From: a virus | Virus record (IMG/VR): IMGVR_UViG_3300027908_000021 | Location: 64,001 to 107,041 of that record | Reading direction: 5' to 3' (one strand) | Length of the DNA stretch: 43,041 nucleotides | Shown: piece after piece, positions 1 to 39,677 of the stretch | Position numbering within the stretch: the first letter of the stretch is position 1 | Layout: every line of letters begins with the position of its first letter | Position numbers and translations under genes: made by a program | The notes under the pieces: generated by a model | What the model was told of the DNA's origin: nothing | What the model saw: the letters and a program-made list of their open reading frames with translations, nothing else | Databases searched by the model: none

Positions 1-410
1 GTCGAAACGATCTTAAGCACTTCCAAATACTCAGGCGTTACCGGTAATTTCATCAAGTCGCCAAAGGACGATAGGTGCAGTTTTAGGTACGTCCAAGGTA
101 TTTCTTTTACTAAACGTGCCGTTTCGATGGAGCAATTTGCCAGCGTCGTGTCCAACCGCATCTTCCAGCCGTCAGCGTTGTACTTACGGATGATTTCAGG
201 AAAGTGGGGGTTGAGAAACGGTTCCGAGAAACCAGACCACACAAGTATTGAGTCTTTTGGTACGGTGCATAAATACTTTTCCAACAAGGCAGGCGTCATG
301 AGAGTTTCGCCGCCGAGTTTCTTGTAAGCTTTGACGTGTTCTGATTGGGGGCAGTAGTCGCAAGCTACCGAGCATCCTAAACCAAGACAAATTGGGAATT
401 CCTTAAACAC
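1..410 (-). CDS. Radical SAM protein, N-terminal part (runs off left edge)
   Basis: The reading frame opens with GTG at 410, overlapping the stop of the DndC-like gene (GTG lies inside the last codons of that gene), and continues past base 1. Residues 9-16 read LGCSVACDYC, which contains a C-x3-C-x2-C cluster typical of radical SAM enzymes that ligate a 4Fe-4S cluster and cleave S-adenosylmethionine. Further on, GGET and WSGFSEPF are consistent with the first strands of the radical SAM barrel. Only about 136 residues are inside the window, so the substrate cannot be told. Its tight coupling to a DndC-like PP-loop gene suggests a joint modification pathway; this is inference. Confidence 0.75.
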   Translation of the reverse strand, partial: MFKEFPICLGLGCSVACDYCPQSEHVKAYKKLGGETLMTPALLEKYLCTVPKDSILVWSGFSEPFLNPHFPEIIRKYNADGWKMRLDTTLANCSIETARLVKEIPWTYLKLHLSSFGDLMKLPVTPEYLEVLKIVS

Positions 411-1680
411 GATTTACAAAAAATCCACAAGTTTGAGGAGCATCACAAGCTAAAATTTCATCACCTGTCCAACCACGCGGATAAACTCCTTCTCGCCAAC
501 ACCGCTCTATTTCTACTAAATCCGCATCCGTTACTAGCACCACCTCAGATCGACGCTGAATGTCCAAAATCTTAGGTAGAAAATACTTTCTCGCTTTTAT
601 TGTCAAAGGTCCGTGGTGTCCTTTACTGAAGTTTTGATTCTTAGATGGTTTCCAAAGTCGGAATGCTGGATTTCGCATCTCTTCCCAAACAGCGCGAAGT
701 TCTAAAATTGGCGTCAGTTTCGGATTCTTCTTTGCCGCTTCAATGGTCATTCTATCTTCGCTTACTACAGAACATCCCAAACAACCGAACCGTAAAGAAC
801 GTTCTACCAAACCGTCCTCGTGTTGGCCGTACATTTTGGCGACAGGTTGAGTAAACCTTTCCAGTCCGTGCCCTTTTCGCAAGAACGACCCTCGTGTTAC
901 TAAGCGGTTCTGAAGCACCGTTTCTCGTGCCGACGGTACTAAATCAACTCTGTAGAAGTTCTTCTCGTTAAAGACAAACCAGCCTTGTAGAAAGTCATAG
1001 ACTATGCACTCTCGCCAATTAACTATTAGCGGCAGAGCGACGTACTTACCGCTCATCTTTTTATCCATCCAAATACCGCCAGAGCCGCACTCTCCTGAAT
1101 CTTTAGAGCATGCGGCAAACGCAACCTGTTTCGAGTCGTTTAACTTAGCGTCCCTACTCCTACTCTCATTGAATCTAACACCACTCATCATCAAAAACTT
1201 CTCACCCGCCACAGCTTCCGCAGTTTTTGCTAATGCTTCCTCCATAGGTTTTACTTTAAGTACTCGTGTACACCACCGTCCACGCAGCGATGCGTGGACG
1301 GGCAGCAAACCTCTCCCCAAAATATTTACATAAAACCTATCTTTTAGAACTGGACCTACAGTAACGGCTCTGAAACCTCTACGTCGTACTTCGGCCATCA
1401 AAATTTCGGCATTGTGGTTCAATTCTGGCAGTTCTTGTGTGGTATCTGATCGTAAAACAGTGAGAGTTTTTGGACGCTCAACGTAACCATTCTCAATGGC
1501 CCACAACACTAACGCTGTCACTGCTGTGCTATCTTTTCCTCCGCTAAAAGGAATTGACCAATGTTTTACTTGTTTACCTAATTCCCGCAACGCCAACAGT
1601 GATCGACAAATTGCGGATTCCCCATTCTCCAACGGTTTTTGAAAGAATCCTAAGCTAATGCGTCGGTAGGTTTGAGGCAT
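403..1680 (-). CDS. DndC-like PP-loop / PAPS reductase family protein
   Basis: 425 residues. The PP-loop ATP-binding motif SGGKDS is at residues 46-51. FYVNILGRG (117-124) followed by GRWCTRVLKVKP (134-145) strongly resembles DndC, the ATP pyrophosphatase that mobilises sulfur for DNA phosphorothioation. A C-x2-C pair at 300/303 (RFGCLGC) and Cys137 could be the Fe-S ligands of that family. DndC needs partners (DndA/IscS, DndD, DndE) that are not seen here, so it may instead be one of the many phage PAPS-reductase-like proteins of unknown substrate. It follows the glycosyltransferase gene closely (22-nt gap) and is coupled to the radical SAM gene downstream. Confidence 0.8.
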   Translation of the reverse strand: MPQTYRRISLGFFQKPLENGESAICRSLLALRELGKQVKHWSIPFSGGKDSTAVTALVLWAIENGYVERPKTLTVLRSDTTQELPELNHNAEILMAEVRRRGFRAVTVGPVLKDRFYVNILGRGLLPVHASLRGRWCTRVLKVKPMEEALAKTAEAVAGEKFLMMSGVRFNESRSRDAKLNDSKQVAFAACSKDSGECGSGGIWMDKKMSGKYVALPLIVNWRECIVYDFLQGWFVFNEKNFYRVDLVPSARETVLQNRLVTRGSFLRKGHGLERFTQPVAKMYGQHEDGLVERSLRFGCLGCSVVSEDRMTIEAAKKNPKLTPILELRAVWEEMRNPAFRLWKPSKNQNFSKGHHGPLTIKARKYFLPKILDIQRRSEVVLVTDADLVEIERCWREGVYPRGWTGDEILACDAPQTCGFFVNRV

Positions 1681-1702
1681 CTACACATCCTTTGTCTTGT
1701 CG

Positions 1703-3322
1703 TTAATCTTCGGAAAGCAAGGTTTTTGCCTGCCAAACGTCGTCCGGCTTGAAAAGATAGGTGCTTTGTTTCCCGAACAACGTAACGTCCAGTCCGTTAC
1801 CTCTCACCCACTCCTCACAAACTTTTCGATTGTAAATTTGAGCGGGGTTCGTGTGGATTTGAGAAGGACGGCTCCAAAATGGGCGGTGTACCGCATGAAA
1901 GCAGATCGGCGTTTCGATTTCTGCCTTGGGGTTATGCTTTAGACACCACCAACGACTAACGGCGTCCCAACCTTCTGCCGCAAGGAAAACCGCCGGTATC
2001 TCATCCCGATGTTCTTTCCACCAACCGATCCTAAACGCGAACAAATCCGCCCCAACGTGAGCAGACTTGCCTTTCAGTGTATTCAAAGTATGCCGAGTAT
2101 CGAAATTCAGTACATCAACGCGACGGCTGAAACAGCAATCCATCTTCTCCATCTTCTGTCTTAGTACCGCCAACGCTTCCGGTACTAACGCAACGTCACT
2201 GTTGCTAAAAACTACAATATCCTTGTCGGTTGCCGGTTCTGTACAACCTCTGTCAATAATATCCGTGATATAAGGCAGGGTCCGCGTGTCGCCCAAGTCT
2301 TTGCTGGAACGCTGGCCGTTGACTAAACGATGCTCGATGATCGTGTAGTCAGGATCACGCCGCAAATCCTCCCATGTCGCTCTGGCTCTTAGTATCCGTG
2401 GATTATCACCAACATTGCCGAGATACCAATCCGCTACGTGATAAATCTTCCTGCCGCCGGACACCAACGCCGCTGAAATCGTATTCTCTTCAAACAACGG
2501 CCGGGTACAACGACCGGGAGCAAAGTCTTTTTCCTTGATTATCTTTTCGATGCGTGCTCTGACTACCGGAGCTATACTTTCGATGTAAGTTGTTTTCAGT
2601 ACAACGTGCTTTCTAGGCTCACTGTCGTAAAATGGACTTGGACGACCTTGCGGATTGGTTCCCGCCGACATTTGAATCGTCGGCGTCATCGTAGCGTAGG
2701 CTAGATGAAGCGATAGCGTATCGACGGTGATTAAGCAATCGGCTTGACTGAGAACTGCCAGAACGTACTGAGGTTTATCAAAACGCTTATCGGTAAGATC
2801 GTAGATGCGGTGGGACTTACTAAATGCTTTGAATATCCAGTCCCATTGACTAACCGTGTGTGCGTAAGGCGACGAATGGGATTTGAAATTGACTACCAAT
2901 AGCGGCCTGCCGTCTGGTTTAGGCAGTCTGGCAATGATTTGTTCTTCGGCTTTGCGATCACGTTTATCAAATAACGGGCGGTAGTCGTGGTACCTCGTTA
3001 AAAACTCAATGCCCGCATTTGCCCATTGCTTGAGAGTGAAGTTTTCGCAATAGACCAAAGGTTCGGTTGGGTTTCCGTTGACTTGAGTTATAAGGATGCG
3101 GTCTAGGCTATCTTTCTCCGCTATTTTAGTTGCTTCCAGTACAGCATCATCACGTAAGTCAAGAGAATGGACGTGGATGTAAGAACATGGTTCCAGTACG
3201 ACGGCATTGTTTTTACTGACGTACCAATGTACTTCATGCCCCTCTAGTGCGAGCATGTAGGCGATTGGGATAGCGTTAACTACGTCACCTAAGCGTCCAA
3301 GCTGAATTATTCCAACCCTCAT
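1703..3322 (-). CDS. Two-domain glycosyltransferase (GT9-like N domain, GT-A-like C domain)
   Basis: 539 residues. The N-terminal 270 residues start MRVGIIQLGRLGDVVNAIP, the signature of GT9 (ADP-heptose/LPS heptosyltransferase-like) proteins; DCLITVDTLSLHLAYA near residues 205-220 is the typical second-domain donor-binding helix. The C-terminal half contains VFSNSDVAL (a DxD-like metal site) and ends with FHAVHRPFW, resembling a GT-A nucleotide-sugar transferase. It starts directly after the stop of the upstream small gene (TGA followed at once by ATG). With the GT-A gene at 3740 it may glycosylate a virion protein, modified DNA or a host surface; the sequence does not decide between these. 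Confidence 0.75.
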   Translation of the reverse strand: MRVGIIQLGRLGDVVNAIPIAYMLALEGHEVHWYVSKNNAVVLEPCSYIHVHSLDLRDDAVLEATKIAEKDSLDRILITQVNGNPTEPLVYCENFTLKQWANAGIEFLTRYHDYRPLFDKRDRKAEEQIIARLPKPDGRPLLVVNFKSHSSPYAHTVSQWDWIFKAFSKSHRIYDLTDKRFDKPQYVLAVLSQADCLITVDTLSLHLAYATMTPTIQMSAGTNPQGRPSPFYDSEPRKHVVLKTTYIESIAPVVRARIEKIIKEKDFAPGRCTRPLFEENTISAALVSGGRKIYHVADWYLGNVGDNPRILRARATWEDLRRDPDYTIIEHRLVNGQRSSKDLGDTRTLPYITDIIDRGCTEPATDKDIVVFSNSDVALVPEALAVLRQKMEKMDCCFSRRVDVLNFDTRHTLNTLKGKSAHVGADLFAFRIGWWKEHRDEIPAVFLAAEGWDAVSRWWCLKHNPKAEIETPICFHAVHRPFWSRPSQIHTNPAQIYNRKVCEEWVRGNGLDVTLFGKQSTYLFKPDDVWQAKTLLSED

Positions 3323-3501
3323 TCAAAGCCCTCTGCTGTCCTTGACCAATTGAATCAAAACTCGCTGGCCGTCGTCGCTATAAACCGTATGAATCAAAAC
3401 TCCTCGTTCTTTGCAACACGCAATCATTTCTTTAGCAACATCTACTGAATAAAACACACCACTTCTTCACGCAAGCAATCGTTTACTTCACGTAATGTCA
3501 T
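3323..3501 (-). pseudogene. Small gene with apparent frameshift
   Basis: An ATG at 3501 overlaps the upstream stop (ATGA) and encodes MTLREVNDCLREEVVCFIQ before a stop. In another frame a peptide beginning VFYSVDVAKEMIACCKERG runs on from 3457 to a TGA at 3323 that touches the glycosyltransferase ATG. The two pieces join smoothly if two bases of a GTGTGT run near 3455-3460 are removed. Either the gene is frameshifted, a sequencing error is present, or the second piece starts on its own at GTG 3457 or ATG 3427. I recognise no domain. Confidence 0.45.
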
Positions 3502-3728
3502 ACTTTTGCCGCCTGAATAATATCACCCAAAGTCAGCATCGACGCCAGATTGAACAACGAAGACTTTTCAATAGCGGCCCACTCGTCTGGGTCTAGGCGT
3601 TGTTTTAGTAAATCCATTGCGAATATGAATGGAATTTCTTCTTCCGGCTTCGCATCAAAAGCTTGTTGATACTCTTCGCTGATTATGACGCCTACCGCTT
3701 TGACTAAAATCTCTCTCATCCTGCTCAT
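3498..3728 (-). CDS. Hypothetical small protein
   Basis: About 76 residues from the ATG at 3728, which has a GAAAGGG Shine-Dalgarno 6 nt upstream; an in-frame TTG at 3743 is less likely because it overlaps the preceding stop. The protein is acidic and helical with PEEEIPFIFAMDLLKQRLDPDEW in the centre. It lies between the GT-A glycosyltransferase and a possibly frameshifted small gene, all overlapping or nearly so, so it is probably co-translated. No family recognised. Confidence 0.6.
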   Translation of the reverse strand: MSRMREILVKAVGVIISEEYQQAFDAKPEEEIPFIFAMDLLKQRLDPDEWAAIEKSSLFNLASMLTLGDIIQAAKV

Positions 3729-3739
3729 TTTACCCTTTC

Positions 3740-4663
3740 TCAAACTCCGTCCTCGTTTCGCATACTGGACGACAACCGAAGATCGTGTTCAAGGTGAGGT
3801 TTATGTCCAGTACGCCATTCGTACAGCCCGCTCTCCCCGACAACTAAATCCGTCTCCGGATTAAACTTGTGAAAGCTGATTATCTCCCATCGCTTCTGAT
3901 ATCCGCGTTGCTCGCTAGCGCCATGCCAATGATGTAAGCAGGCACCCTTCACGTAACCGATGTTCTGCCGGATATGAAGATCGCACCGCCTTGCCCACGT
4001 CTTGATAGCTGCAACGTAGCCGGGCGATAAAGGGTCGGGAGGCAAGTAGCCGTCCCAACGACCCCGCAATGCCCACGCCATGAGCGTATCGCCACTGCCA
4101 GACACGCACGTATCCAACAAGCCTTCAAGATTCTGCCACGCATCGACCGTACAGGCCCATGCCAAACCGGGATGACCTCTGGCGATGTACTCGGTTTGAA
4201 TCGGCGGTATTTGGTGAAATCCCTTGTCTACAAAAACCTTCAAAGCAGAGGGACAGAACCACAAGACTTCTTCAAACTGATTTAGATAAACGGCCTGTCC
4301 AAACATTTGAACAACTTGATAATGCTGCAAAGCATGTACAGTTTCGTTTACCCAATTTTGAATCGAAAACGAAACATCTGCATCAATCCAAGCAATGTAC
4401 TTGGTGTTCGGGTTGGTAGCGATTGCGTGCCGAATGCCGATATTCAGAGCCCGCTCTTTGTGCCAAAGCTCTGATTTCGTTCTCAATTGAATCGTGTCAG
4501 CGTCCGGTGTCGTCTCAAAAGGACGTTCGCCCAAAGCAACCTCTACCGTCACCAACCGACAACCAAATTGCTTGATATAGGCAGCGAACTCCTTGTACAA
4601 CCGGATACGTGAGTTAAAACGGTTCGGGTTAAACAAACAGGTTACAACAGTCAGATCGTTCAT
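3740..4663 (-). CDS. GT-A fold glycosyltransferase
   Basis: 307 residues. N-terminal MNDLTVVTCLFNPNRF is the first strand of a GT-A nucleotide-sugar transferase; ERALNIGIRHAI (about 71-82) and IDADVSF (about 93-99) give the helix and DxD metal-binding motif. GHPGLAWACTVDAW and the region up to CLHHWHG are typical acceptor and late metal-site elements. It is the first gene after a strong terminator (4706-4749) and a GGTATAAT box (4697-4704), with an AAAGGAG Shine-Dalgarno, so it likely starts the leftmost transcription unit together with the second glycosyltransferase and the DndC-like gene. Confidence 0.75.
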   Translation of the reverse strand: MNDLTVVTCLFNPNRFNSRIRLYKEFAAYIKQFGCRLVTVEVALGERPFETTPDADTIQLRTKSELWHKERALNIGIRHAIATNPNTKYIAWIDADVSFSIQNWVNETVHALQHYQVVQMFGQAVYLNQFEEVLWFCPSALKVFVDKGFHQIPPIQTEYIARGHPGLAWACTVDAWQNLEGLLDTCVSGSGDTLMAWALRGRWDGYLPPDPLSPGYVAAIKTWARRCDLHIRQNIGYVKGACLHHWHGASEQRGYQKRWEIISFHKFNPETDLVVGESGLYEWRTGHKPHLEHDLRLSSSMRNEDGV

Positions 4664-4705: not shown

Positions 4706-4749
4706 AAAGAAAAACAGCCGGGCGTAAGCTTCGATTTACTGCCCGGCTG
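4706..4749 (-). terminator. Rho-independent terminator after the 4819-5247 gene
   Basis: Perfect 9-bp inverted repeat CAGCCGGGC (4715-4723) and GCCCGGCTG (4741-4749), loop 17 nt, followed on the minus strand by TTTTTCTTT. It ends the unit carrying the virion genes and precedes the glycosyltransferase promoter. Confidence 0.85.
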
Positions 4750-4818
4750 CCGGAGGTGAAGACTTGGAGATTTTCTTTTGAACACTTCGACCCAAACAAA
4801 CCTAACAAAGCCCTAAAA

Positions 4819-24978: not shown

Positions 24979-25419
24979 ATGTTGGTTTTAAGTAGAAATC
25001 GCGACGAGTCGGTAATGATTGGAGACGATATTTCCGTTACTATCGTTGATATACGCGGAGATCGAGTCAGACTCGGTTTTAACGCACCAATCAGTTATCG
25101 AATCGACCGCAAGGAAATTTACGATGCCAAGAAACGAGAACAACAGGAAAACAAAGATTCAGTTCCTTTTGTTCCACGCGGACGATATTCAGAAGACAAC
25201 CCACCTTTGATGGGAGACGCCGATCCTGATTACAATCTCGCGACTGACATGGAATGGTGGGATGCACAATTAAAAAACTTCCCACAAGTACGCGTCGAAA
25301 ACAACCAGTGGGTGGTTGCCGTTGCTCCTACACTAAAAACAGTAGCCAGAGGAAAAACATTTCTAGAAGCCGTTAACCGTTGCCGAGAGAATGCAGCAAA
25401 TCTACGAAGGAAAGGGTGA
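24979..25419 (+). CDS. csrA: CsrA-like translational regulator with C-terminal extension
   Basis: 146 residues; the first 55 (MLVLSRNRDESVMIGDDISVTI, DIRGDRVRLGFNAP, IDRKEIYDAKK) are a full CsrA domain with the conserved MLVLSR start and the RKE segment that binds ANGGA in RNA. Cellular CsrA is about 60-70 residues; here about 80 more follow, ending WVVAVAPTLKTVARGKTFLEAVNRCRENAANL, which has a HicB-like look (weak). CsrA represses or stabilises mRNAs by binding GGA loops at ribosome sites; many plus-strand genes here have AAAGGA leaders. Ribosome site AGAAAGGAA. Phage capture of csrA is inference from position. Confidence 0.88.
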   Translation: MLVLSRNRDESVMIGDDISVTIVDIRGDRVRLGFNAPISYRIDRKEIYDAKKREQQENKDSVPFVPRGRYSEDNPPLMGDADPDYNLATDMEWWDAQLKNFPQVRVENNQWVVAVAPTLKTVARGKTFLEAVNRCRENAANLRRKG

Positions 25420-38441: not shown

Positions 38442-39677
38442 ATGAAAGACGCACGAGAACAACGCGGGCAGGACATTGCAAAGGTTGCCGTCATTGCCAA
38501 GCGGACGGACGGAACCTACGCCGTTCCTTCGATGAGCGGCAACGGCAAGTACACCGTCAAGCTGGGAGAGAAGCCCACTTGCACCTGCCCCGATTGCCAA
38601 AACGGCTTTAAGTGCAAGCACATTTACGCCGTCGAATTCACGATGACGCTGGAAGCCGTTCAAAACGCCGATGGGTCAACAACCGTTACTGAAACGGTCG
38701 AAATAAAGGCAACGGCACGAAAGACGTACAAGCAGAATTGGCCCGCATACAACGAAGCGCAGACAACCGAGAAGCACGAATTCCAATCGATCCTTTTCGA
38801 CTTGTGCAAGGGCATCACGACGCCGGAACAGAAGGGACGGGGTCAACGTCGCTTGCCCATGTCCGATGCGACGTTTGCCGCCGTGTTCAAGGTCTATAGC
38901 ACCGTGAGCGGTCGGCGTTTCATGTGCGATCTGTCGGACGCACAGGACCGGGGATACATCGAAGAACTCCCGCACTTCAATTCGATTTTCAACTATCTCG
39001 AAAACCCGGACATGACGCCGATCCTTGAATCCCTCATCGTGGAATCAGCCAAGCCGCTCGCAGAAGTGGAATCGAACTTCTCCGTTGACTCAACAGGCTT
39101 TTCGTCGTCGCGGTTCGTCCGCTGGTTTGATCAAAAGTACGGCGTCGTGCGGCAGGACCACACATGGGTCAAAGCTCACTTCTGTTGCGGGGTCAAAACC
39201 AACGTCGTGACTGCCGTTTCGATCTACGAAAAGAACACGAACGACACGCCGATCTTGCCGGAACTGGTGGATGCAACCGCAAAGAACTTCACGATGAAGG
39301 AAGTGAGTGCCGACAAGGCGTACGCCACGAACGACAATTTCAACGCCATTGAGCGGGCCGGGGCAAACGCCTACATCATGTTCAAGTCGTCACACAACGG
39401 CAGTTCAGGCGGATTGTTGGCGAAAGCCTTCCACTACTTCTGCTTCAAGAAAGACGAATTCCTTGCCCACTACCATAAGCGGTCGAATGTGGAATCGACC
39501 GTGAGCATGGTGAAGGCGAAGTTCCGGGACCACGTCCGGAGTAAGACCGACATTGCCATGAAGAACGAAGTCCTCTGCAAGTTCCTCTGCCACAACATTT
39601 GCTGCCTGATTTCTGCAATTTACGAGCTTGGAATCGAGCCGATGTTTTTGGCTGAAAAGTCAAGGACGACTGCTTAG
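38442..39677 (+). CDS. SWIM zinc-finger DDE transposase
   Basis: 411 residues from ATG 38442; residue numbers here count two codons more (GTG-GAC). CTC and CKH at 49-51 and 60-62 form a SWIM finger. The catalytic core has D218 (FSVDSTGFSS), D293 (EVSADKAYATNDN) and E353 in the YHKRSNVESTVSMVKAKF motif, an IS4-superfamily DDE_Tnp_1 layout. The YxKRSxVExxxSxxK element is diagnostic. This enzyme would cut at the TGCACAAC ends and give the 10-bp duplication. GC- and codon-rich style differs from the phage genes. Transcribed from a strong repressible promoter. Confidence 0.9.
   Translation: MKDAREQRGQDIAKVAVIAKRTDGTYAVPSMSGNGKYTVKLGEKPTCTCPDCQNGFKCKHIYAVEFTMTLEAVQNADGSTTVTETVEIKATARKTYKQNWPAYNEAQTTEKHEFQSILFDLCKGITTPEQKGRGQRRLPMSDATFAAVFKVYSTVSGRRFMCDLSDAQDRGYIEELPHFNSIFNYLENPDMTPILESLIVESAKPLAEVESNFSVDSTGFSSSRFVRWFDQKYGVVRQDHTWVKAHFCCGVKTNVVTAVSIYEKNTNDTPILPELVDATAKNFTMKEVSADKAYATNDNFNAIERAGANAYIMFKSSHNGSSGGLLAKAFHYFCFKKDEFLAHYHKRSNVESTVSMVKAKFRDHVRSKTDIAMKNEVLCKFLCHNICCLISAIYELGIEPMFLAEKSRTTA

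Follow-up and report, generated by a model that had tools for sequence, protein, structure and literature searches.

The virus examined here carries, in what appears to be its tail module, an operon of about ten genes that we read, with a probability of about 0.5, as the source of a glycan that is methylated and radical-modified and that most likely decorates a tail fiber. The stretch of DNA analyzed (the window; 43,041 nucleotides) corresponds to G000:64001-107041, the right-hand 43 kb of a virus record that spans 107,041 bp and is called a soil phage; coordinates with the prefix G000 are those of the whole record, and those without a prefix are those of the window. Since both ends of the record have 99 bp in common, a circular assembly is the simplest reading of it. 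The two glycosyltransferase genes, the DndC-like PP-loop gene, and the radical SAM gene at the left edge of the window are only the front half of the operon. Each part of the cassette is of a known kind, and their combination is unusual; among the loci examined, only those of this phage placed a DndC-like enzyme within a tail glycan operon.

All four genes named in a preliminary description of the window are indeed present on the minus strand. In the order of transcription, the window contains a GT2-like glycosyltransferase gene (307 residues; 3740..4663), a small open reading frame (ORF) of 81 residues with no family match (3498..3743), a gene for a GT9-type, i.e., heptosyltransferase-type, protein of 539 residues (1703..3322), a gene for a DndC-like PP-loop ATPase of the PAPS-reductase superfamily (425 residues; 403..1680), and the start of the radical SAM-SPASM gene (1..410). 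The GT2-like gene and the small ORF overlap by 4 nt, the GT9-type and PP-loop genes are separated by 22 nt, and the PP-loop and radical SAM genes overlap by 8 nt. The quartet had been described as one tightly coupled unit, which holds at these junctions, but the small ORF brings the number of genes to five and a gap of 175 nt separates it from the GT9-type gene. The unit had also been placed after a strong terminator, and this stands because a stem-loop followed by a U-run is present near 4706..4750, on the minus strand upstream of the cassette, and folds at -25 kcal/mol (z score of -3.54), a stability reached by none of 200 shuffled sequences. Extending the sequence to the left, as had been proposed, completed the radical SAM gene and revealed five further genes and an IS1 element. 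The window edge leaves 136 N-terminal residues of the radical SAM protein inside; the full gene (G000:63619-64410) encodes 263 residues. Beyond it, the minus-strand unit runs on with a membrane ORF, an FkbM methyltransferase gene (G000:60316-61122), an ORF of 125 residues (G000:59942-60319), a GT17 glycosyltransferase gene (G000:59160-59945), and a gene for a 2OG-oxygenase-like protein of 324 residues (G000:58098-59072). Overlaps of 4 nt link the FkbM gene, the 125-residue ORF, and the GT17 gene. The operon is probably expressed late.

The cassette unit is split by a 2.25-kb transposon of the IS1 family, which carries passenger ORFs (G000:61187-63435, equivalent to L007:5187-7435). The element has inverted repeats of 16 to 17 bp, a GC content of about 53% compared to about 47% in its surroundings, and an IS1 transposase that matches those of alphaproteobacterial plasmids at about 50%. 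A chimeric assembly at this site was considered and judged unlikely, since an 8-bp target duplication (CAATAACG) flanks the transposon. Because joining the flanks without the element restores a membrane ORF of 76 residues, truncated by the insertion, that ends 9 nt before the FkbM gene, the genes on both sides appear to have formed one unit of about ten genes before the insertion. A search for the four-gene combination elsewhere, which had been suggested as a check on synteny in other phages, led only to the same phage, recorded as IMGVR_UViG_3300002245_000012, whose copy is 100% identical and whose contig ends inside IS1. The sole other contig found to pair a PP-loop gene closely with a GT2 gene is L057.

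Most genes of the unit point to the assembly of a glycan. The GT2-like protein falls just under the cut-off of the Pfam Glycos_transf_2 model (E value of 2e-4; 21.6 bits against 23.3) and contains a DxD motif (WIDADV) whose aspartates, D94 and D96, are invariant in its relatives. These relatives were found in 12 other viral contigs and in Xanthomonas phage XaC1, and the one in contig L181 directly abuts an FkbM gene. The N-terminal GT9 domain of the 539-residue protein likewise scores under the cut-offs of the NCBIfam model heptsyl_trn_I (4.6e-5) and of Pfam GT9 (0.004 to 0.008; 15.9 to 17 bits against 22), and GT9-like motifs, GRLGDVV and DTLSLHLAYATMTPTIQMSAGTNP, can be recognized by eye at both ends of the domain. 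The C-terminal part of about 250 residues matched no family, no phage relatives of the whole protein were found, and its single-sequence structure model was too poor for use (pLDDT of 33). The FkbM and GT17 proteins are both above their Pfam cut-offs, and the nucleotide-sugar cluster of Synechococcus phage S-B05, which adjoins tail fiber and endosialidase genes, contains a GT17 relative. The 2OG-oxygenase-like protein has no Pfam match and was assigned by eye from an HxD...H...R pattern. No genes for nucleotide-sugar synthesis were recognized in the phage, and the sugar donors would therefore be made by the host. We also considered a sulfated-glycan route relying on PAPS and a sulfotransferase and rejected it, no sulfotransferase having been found in the phage genome.

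The complete radical SAM protein matches both Radical_SAM and a C-terminal SPASM domain above the Pfam cut-offs and carries the CxxxCxxC motif. Its relatives were collected by an alignment-based search, from which the best 80 of 215 viral stretches were kept. Within this sample, 19 of 30 viral records contained FkbM, mostly in one long open frame spanning the radical SAM position, and 55 of 79 radical SAM ORFs exceeded 450 residues; fusion of the two domains thus appears to be the common state among viral relatives. In the phage of the window they are separate genes, which were neighbors before the IS1 insertion. Synechococcus phage DSL-LC02 encodes a radical SAM-FkbM protein together with a mannosyltransferase between tail fiber and collagen-like genes. 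Collagen-like ORFs, defined by nine or more Gly-X-Y triplets, occurred at 7 of 30 distinct radical SAM loci, mostly within three ORFs, versus none of 79 viral PP-loop loci, a supportive comparison only, as the two sets of loci may differ in phage type and lineage, for which no matching was made. The phage itself encodes a fiber-like protein of 704 residues (G000:51313-53427) with GATGATGATG/GTNGTNGTN collagen-like repeats of the (GAT)n/(GTN)n type, whose profile score (27.0 bits) nearly reaches the cut-off of 27.2. This gene lies about 5 kb downstream of the cassette, outside the coupled unit, and a GT4 glycosyltransferase above its Pfam cut-off is also encoded downstream. The link between radical SAM, FkbM, and collagen-like fibers offers a concrete hypothesis for why radical SAM genes are kept by phages near their tail fibers.

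The cassette is flanked on one side by small same-strand ORFs and on the other by tail-assembly or tail-like genes. The position and size of these genes suggest a tail module with the cassette inside it. As in the cassettes of large-phage tail modules, glycosyltransferase, FkbM, and radical SAM genes lie here in the tail region near fiber genes. Radical SAM and glycosyltransferase cassettes lie in the hypervariable tail-fiber region of pelagimyophages (PMC7029224) and of cyanomyophages such as Synechococcus phage DSL-LC02; the present cassette shares with both the glycosyltransferases, FkbM, and radical SAM-SPASM near fibers and collagen-like proteins. Unlike those cassettes, it keeps radical SAM and FkbM apart and adds the DndC-like PP-loop and GT9-type genes.

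From this gene set we infer the glycan product, its acceptor, the order of the steps, and the role of the PP-loop protein as follows. The GT2, GT9-type, and GT17 enzymes would assemble or transfer a short glycan, which FkbM would methylate, and the radical SAM-SPASM protein would modify that sugar or its carrier by radical chemistry. Hydroxylation of the acceptor may be the task of the 2OG-oxygenase-like protein, and the PP-loop protein probably activates some substrate, by adenylation and thiolation or in another way. The acceptor would most likely be a virion tail protein, the best guess being the collagen-like fiber, with the host surface as second choice. The preliminary description had left DNA, tRNA, and a virion component as targets of a sulfur- or sugar-bearing modification. 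The evidence for a modification cassette is good, and the virion is the favored target because of the glycan-type gene set, its site in the tail module, and the radical SAM relatives fused to FkbM near collagen-like fibers; DNA as the target of the whole cassette found no support in this genome. Several points weigh against a virion glycan: the GT2 and GT9 matches lie under curated cut-offs, the 2OG assignment was made by eye, the collagen-like fiber is not part of the coupled unit, the donors would need the host, and the relatives of the PP-loop protein indicate DNA rather than glycans. A literature search on glycosylated phage virions gave no usable result.

The main alternative is that the same enzymes remodel the host surface instead. 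In bacteria, GT9 enzymes act on the lipopolysaccharide core, and a cassette that alters lipopolysaccharide or capsule during infection would exclude competing phages and leave the virion undecorated. This role of GT9 enzymes and the small membrane ORF within the operon fit such a scheme, as does the preference of the pelagimyophage authors for modification of the host O-chain by genes of this kind (PMC7029224). We nonetheless consider it rather unlikely, given the location of the cassette inside the tail module, the association of radical SAM-FkbM relatives with collagen-like fibers, and the presence of such a fiber in the same genome. A further alternative is that the quartet consists of chance neighbors, i.e., independent morons (phage accessory genes) that share no product. 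The quartet co-occurs nowhere else that was found, only contig L057 brings a PP-loop and a GT2 gene together, and the relatives of each gene move independently; however, the overlapping starts and stops, the single strand, the one upstream terminator, and the consistent glycan functions of most members make unrelated morons an improbable explanation. These readings do not exclude one another, and the confidences placed in them, including those for the PP-loop protein below, therefore need not sum to one.

The PP-loop protein belongs to a family with a different habitual setting. It matches PAPS_reduct and phrog_12882 (2.7e-59), as well as the DndC model TIGR03183 at 92.1 bits (E value of 3.4e-26), which does not reach the cut-off of 290 bits. 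An alignment search yielded 80 viral and 80 genomic loci, which together with loci of cultured phages gave 106 distinct relatives at 90%. The SGGKDS motif is conserved in 104 of these 106, each of the cysteines C137, C191, C198, C225, C300, and C303 is found in 104 to 106 of them, and the window protein contains them all. When Salmonella DndC is included in the alignment, S46 to S51, C137, and the C300/C303 pair are still invariant. The AlphaFold model has a confident core (pTM of 0.80) and matches PP-loop ATPases such as APS reductase, TilS, and the Fe-S thiolases NcsA and TtuA, and also LarE; the alignments cover the core alone, which keeps the TM-scores low. The terminal branch that leads to the window protein in a tree measures 4.2 changes per column, compared with a median of 0.2, and the placement of the protein is unsure. 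It is related to phage proteins of phrog_12882 (Rhizobium phage RR1-A, Pseudomonas phages Dobby and phiC725A, and Microcystis phage Mae-JY29) by SGGKDS, RWCT, and the six cysteines, with about 31 to 34% identity over about 90% of the protein. In those phages the gene mostly lies beside DNA methyltransferase genes and away from tail genes; unlike them, the window protein combines its very long branch and an insert of about 30 residues with a place in a tail-module glycan operon. It is thus a strongly diverged member of the family, with motif residues intact, outside the usual setting.

DNA methyltransferases account for 14% of the ORFs adjacent to the PP-loop gene across the family, 6% of those at two ORFs, 5% at three, and about 2% or less beyond four ORFs, the labels of neighbor clusters resting on a Pfam check of examples. 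Such a gene is found within two ORFs at 38 of the 106 distinct loci, a frequent rather than universal association, and 21 of 36 viral records contain a C5 methyltransferase. Many phages carry PAPS-reductase-like genes, which are usually assigned to sulfur metabolism, with their function considered open (PMC11437467); the tie of this DndC-like family to DNA methyltransferases speaks for a role in modifying nucleic acids rather than in assimilating sulfate. In the phage of the window, the PP-loop gene has no adjacent DNA methyltransferase gene. The 107-kb genome gave no match to a C5 methyltransferase, and two tandem N6/N4 DNA methyltransferase genes (G000:17395-19070) lie 45 kb from the cassette. 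DndD, DndE, and a cysteine desulfurase were also unmatched in the whole genome, in agreement with the stated absence of the usual Dnd partners; the DndE model did find Salmonella DndE as a positive control. The window protein shares with DndC of the DndABCDE phosphorothioation system the PP-loop core, RWCT, and the CxxC pair, whereas Salmonella DndC has only C137, C300, and C303 of the six family cysteines. With its partners missing and the DndC score below the cut-off, a complete Dnd system was rejected. The protein also shares the PAPS-reductase superfamily with BrxP of type 4 BREX and with SspD, enzymes found in DNA-modification settings, but matches them over the PP-loop core only (32.1 and 32.9 bits), and five cassette proteins tested had no match to other BREX or Ssp parts.

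These comparisons leave a role in DNA modification open for the PP-loop protein alone, as its family associations elsewhere would suggest. It may act on phage DNA (or tRNA) apart from the glycan genes, a possibility that we take seriously while giving it less than even odds. The enzyme would then be a solitary DndC/SspD-like sulfur-transfer or base-activating protein whose partners are those of the host or the phage N6/N4 methyltransferases; the desulfurase absent from the phage could be replaced by that of the host. Family neighbors that are DNA methyltransferases, including examples in cultured phages, the two N6/N4 genes of the phage itself, and the several thiolases among the structural matches (NcsA, TtuA, LarE) agree with such an activity. 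They are set against a genome lacking a C5 methyltransferase, DndD, DndE, and a desulfurase, N6/N4 genes 45 kb away, a very long branch, and the coupling of the gene to those for radical SAM and GT9. We thus regard the protein as a DNA or tRNA enzyme carried in the operon or, less likely, a sulfur-transfer enzyme recruited to the glycan pathway. The one indication of a sulfur-bearing modification is the homology of the PP-loop protein. It is quite a long shot that this enzyme no longer serves DNA modification and instead acts with the radical SAM protein of the overlapping gene to place sulfur on a sugar or a fiber residue; if so, the phage tail would bear a thio-glycan or a thiolated glycoprotein. 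The presence of a very divergent, motif-intact member in a tail glycan operon makes such substrate switching testable.

Two associations were noted among the PP-loop loci. DUF5131 (phage Gp37/Gp68, possibly radical-SAM-like) is encoded near 18 of the 106, for example in L100, L019, and L113, and PP-loop, DUF5131, and DNA methyltransferase genes possibly form a module. In viral contig L057, genes for Csf2- and Csf3-like proteins lie next to one for a CysH-like protein (L057:13850-16670), near the PP-loop and GT2 genes; the phage contig thus seems to carry an effector module of type IV CRISPR.

The phage of the window is only distantly related to sequenced phages, its best terminase match being 42%, to a Thermobifida phage, and a search for sister phages with the large tail protein found no relatives. 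A second mobile element is present at 38442-39677, where the encoded DDE transposase has a SWIM zinc finger at its N terminus. The phage also encodes a CsrA-like regulator of phrog_9500 at 24979-25419.
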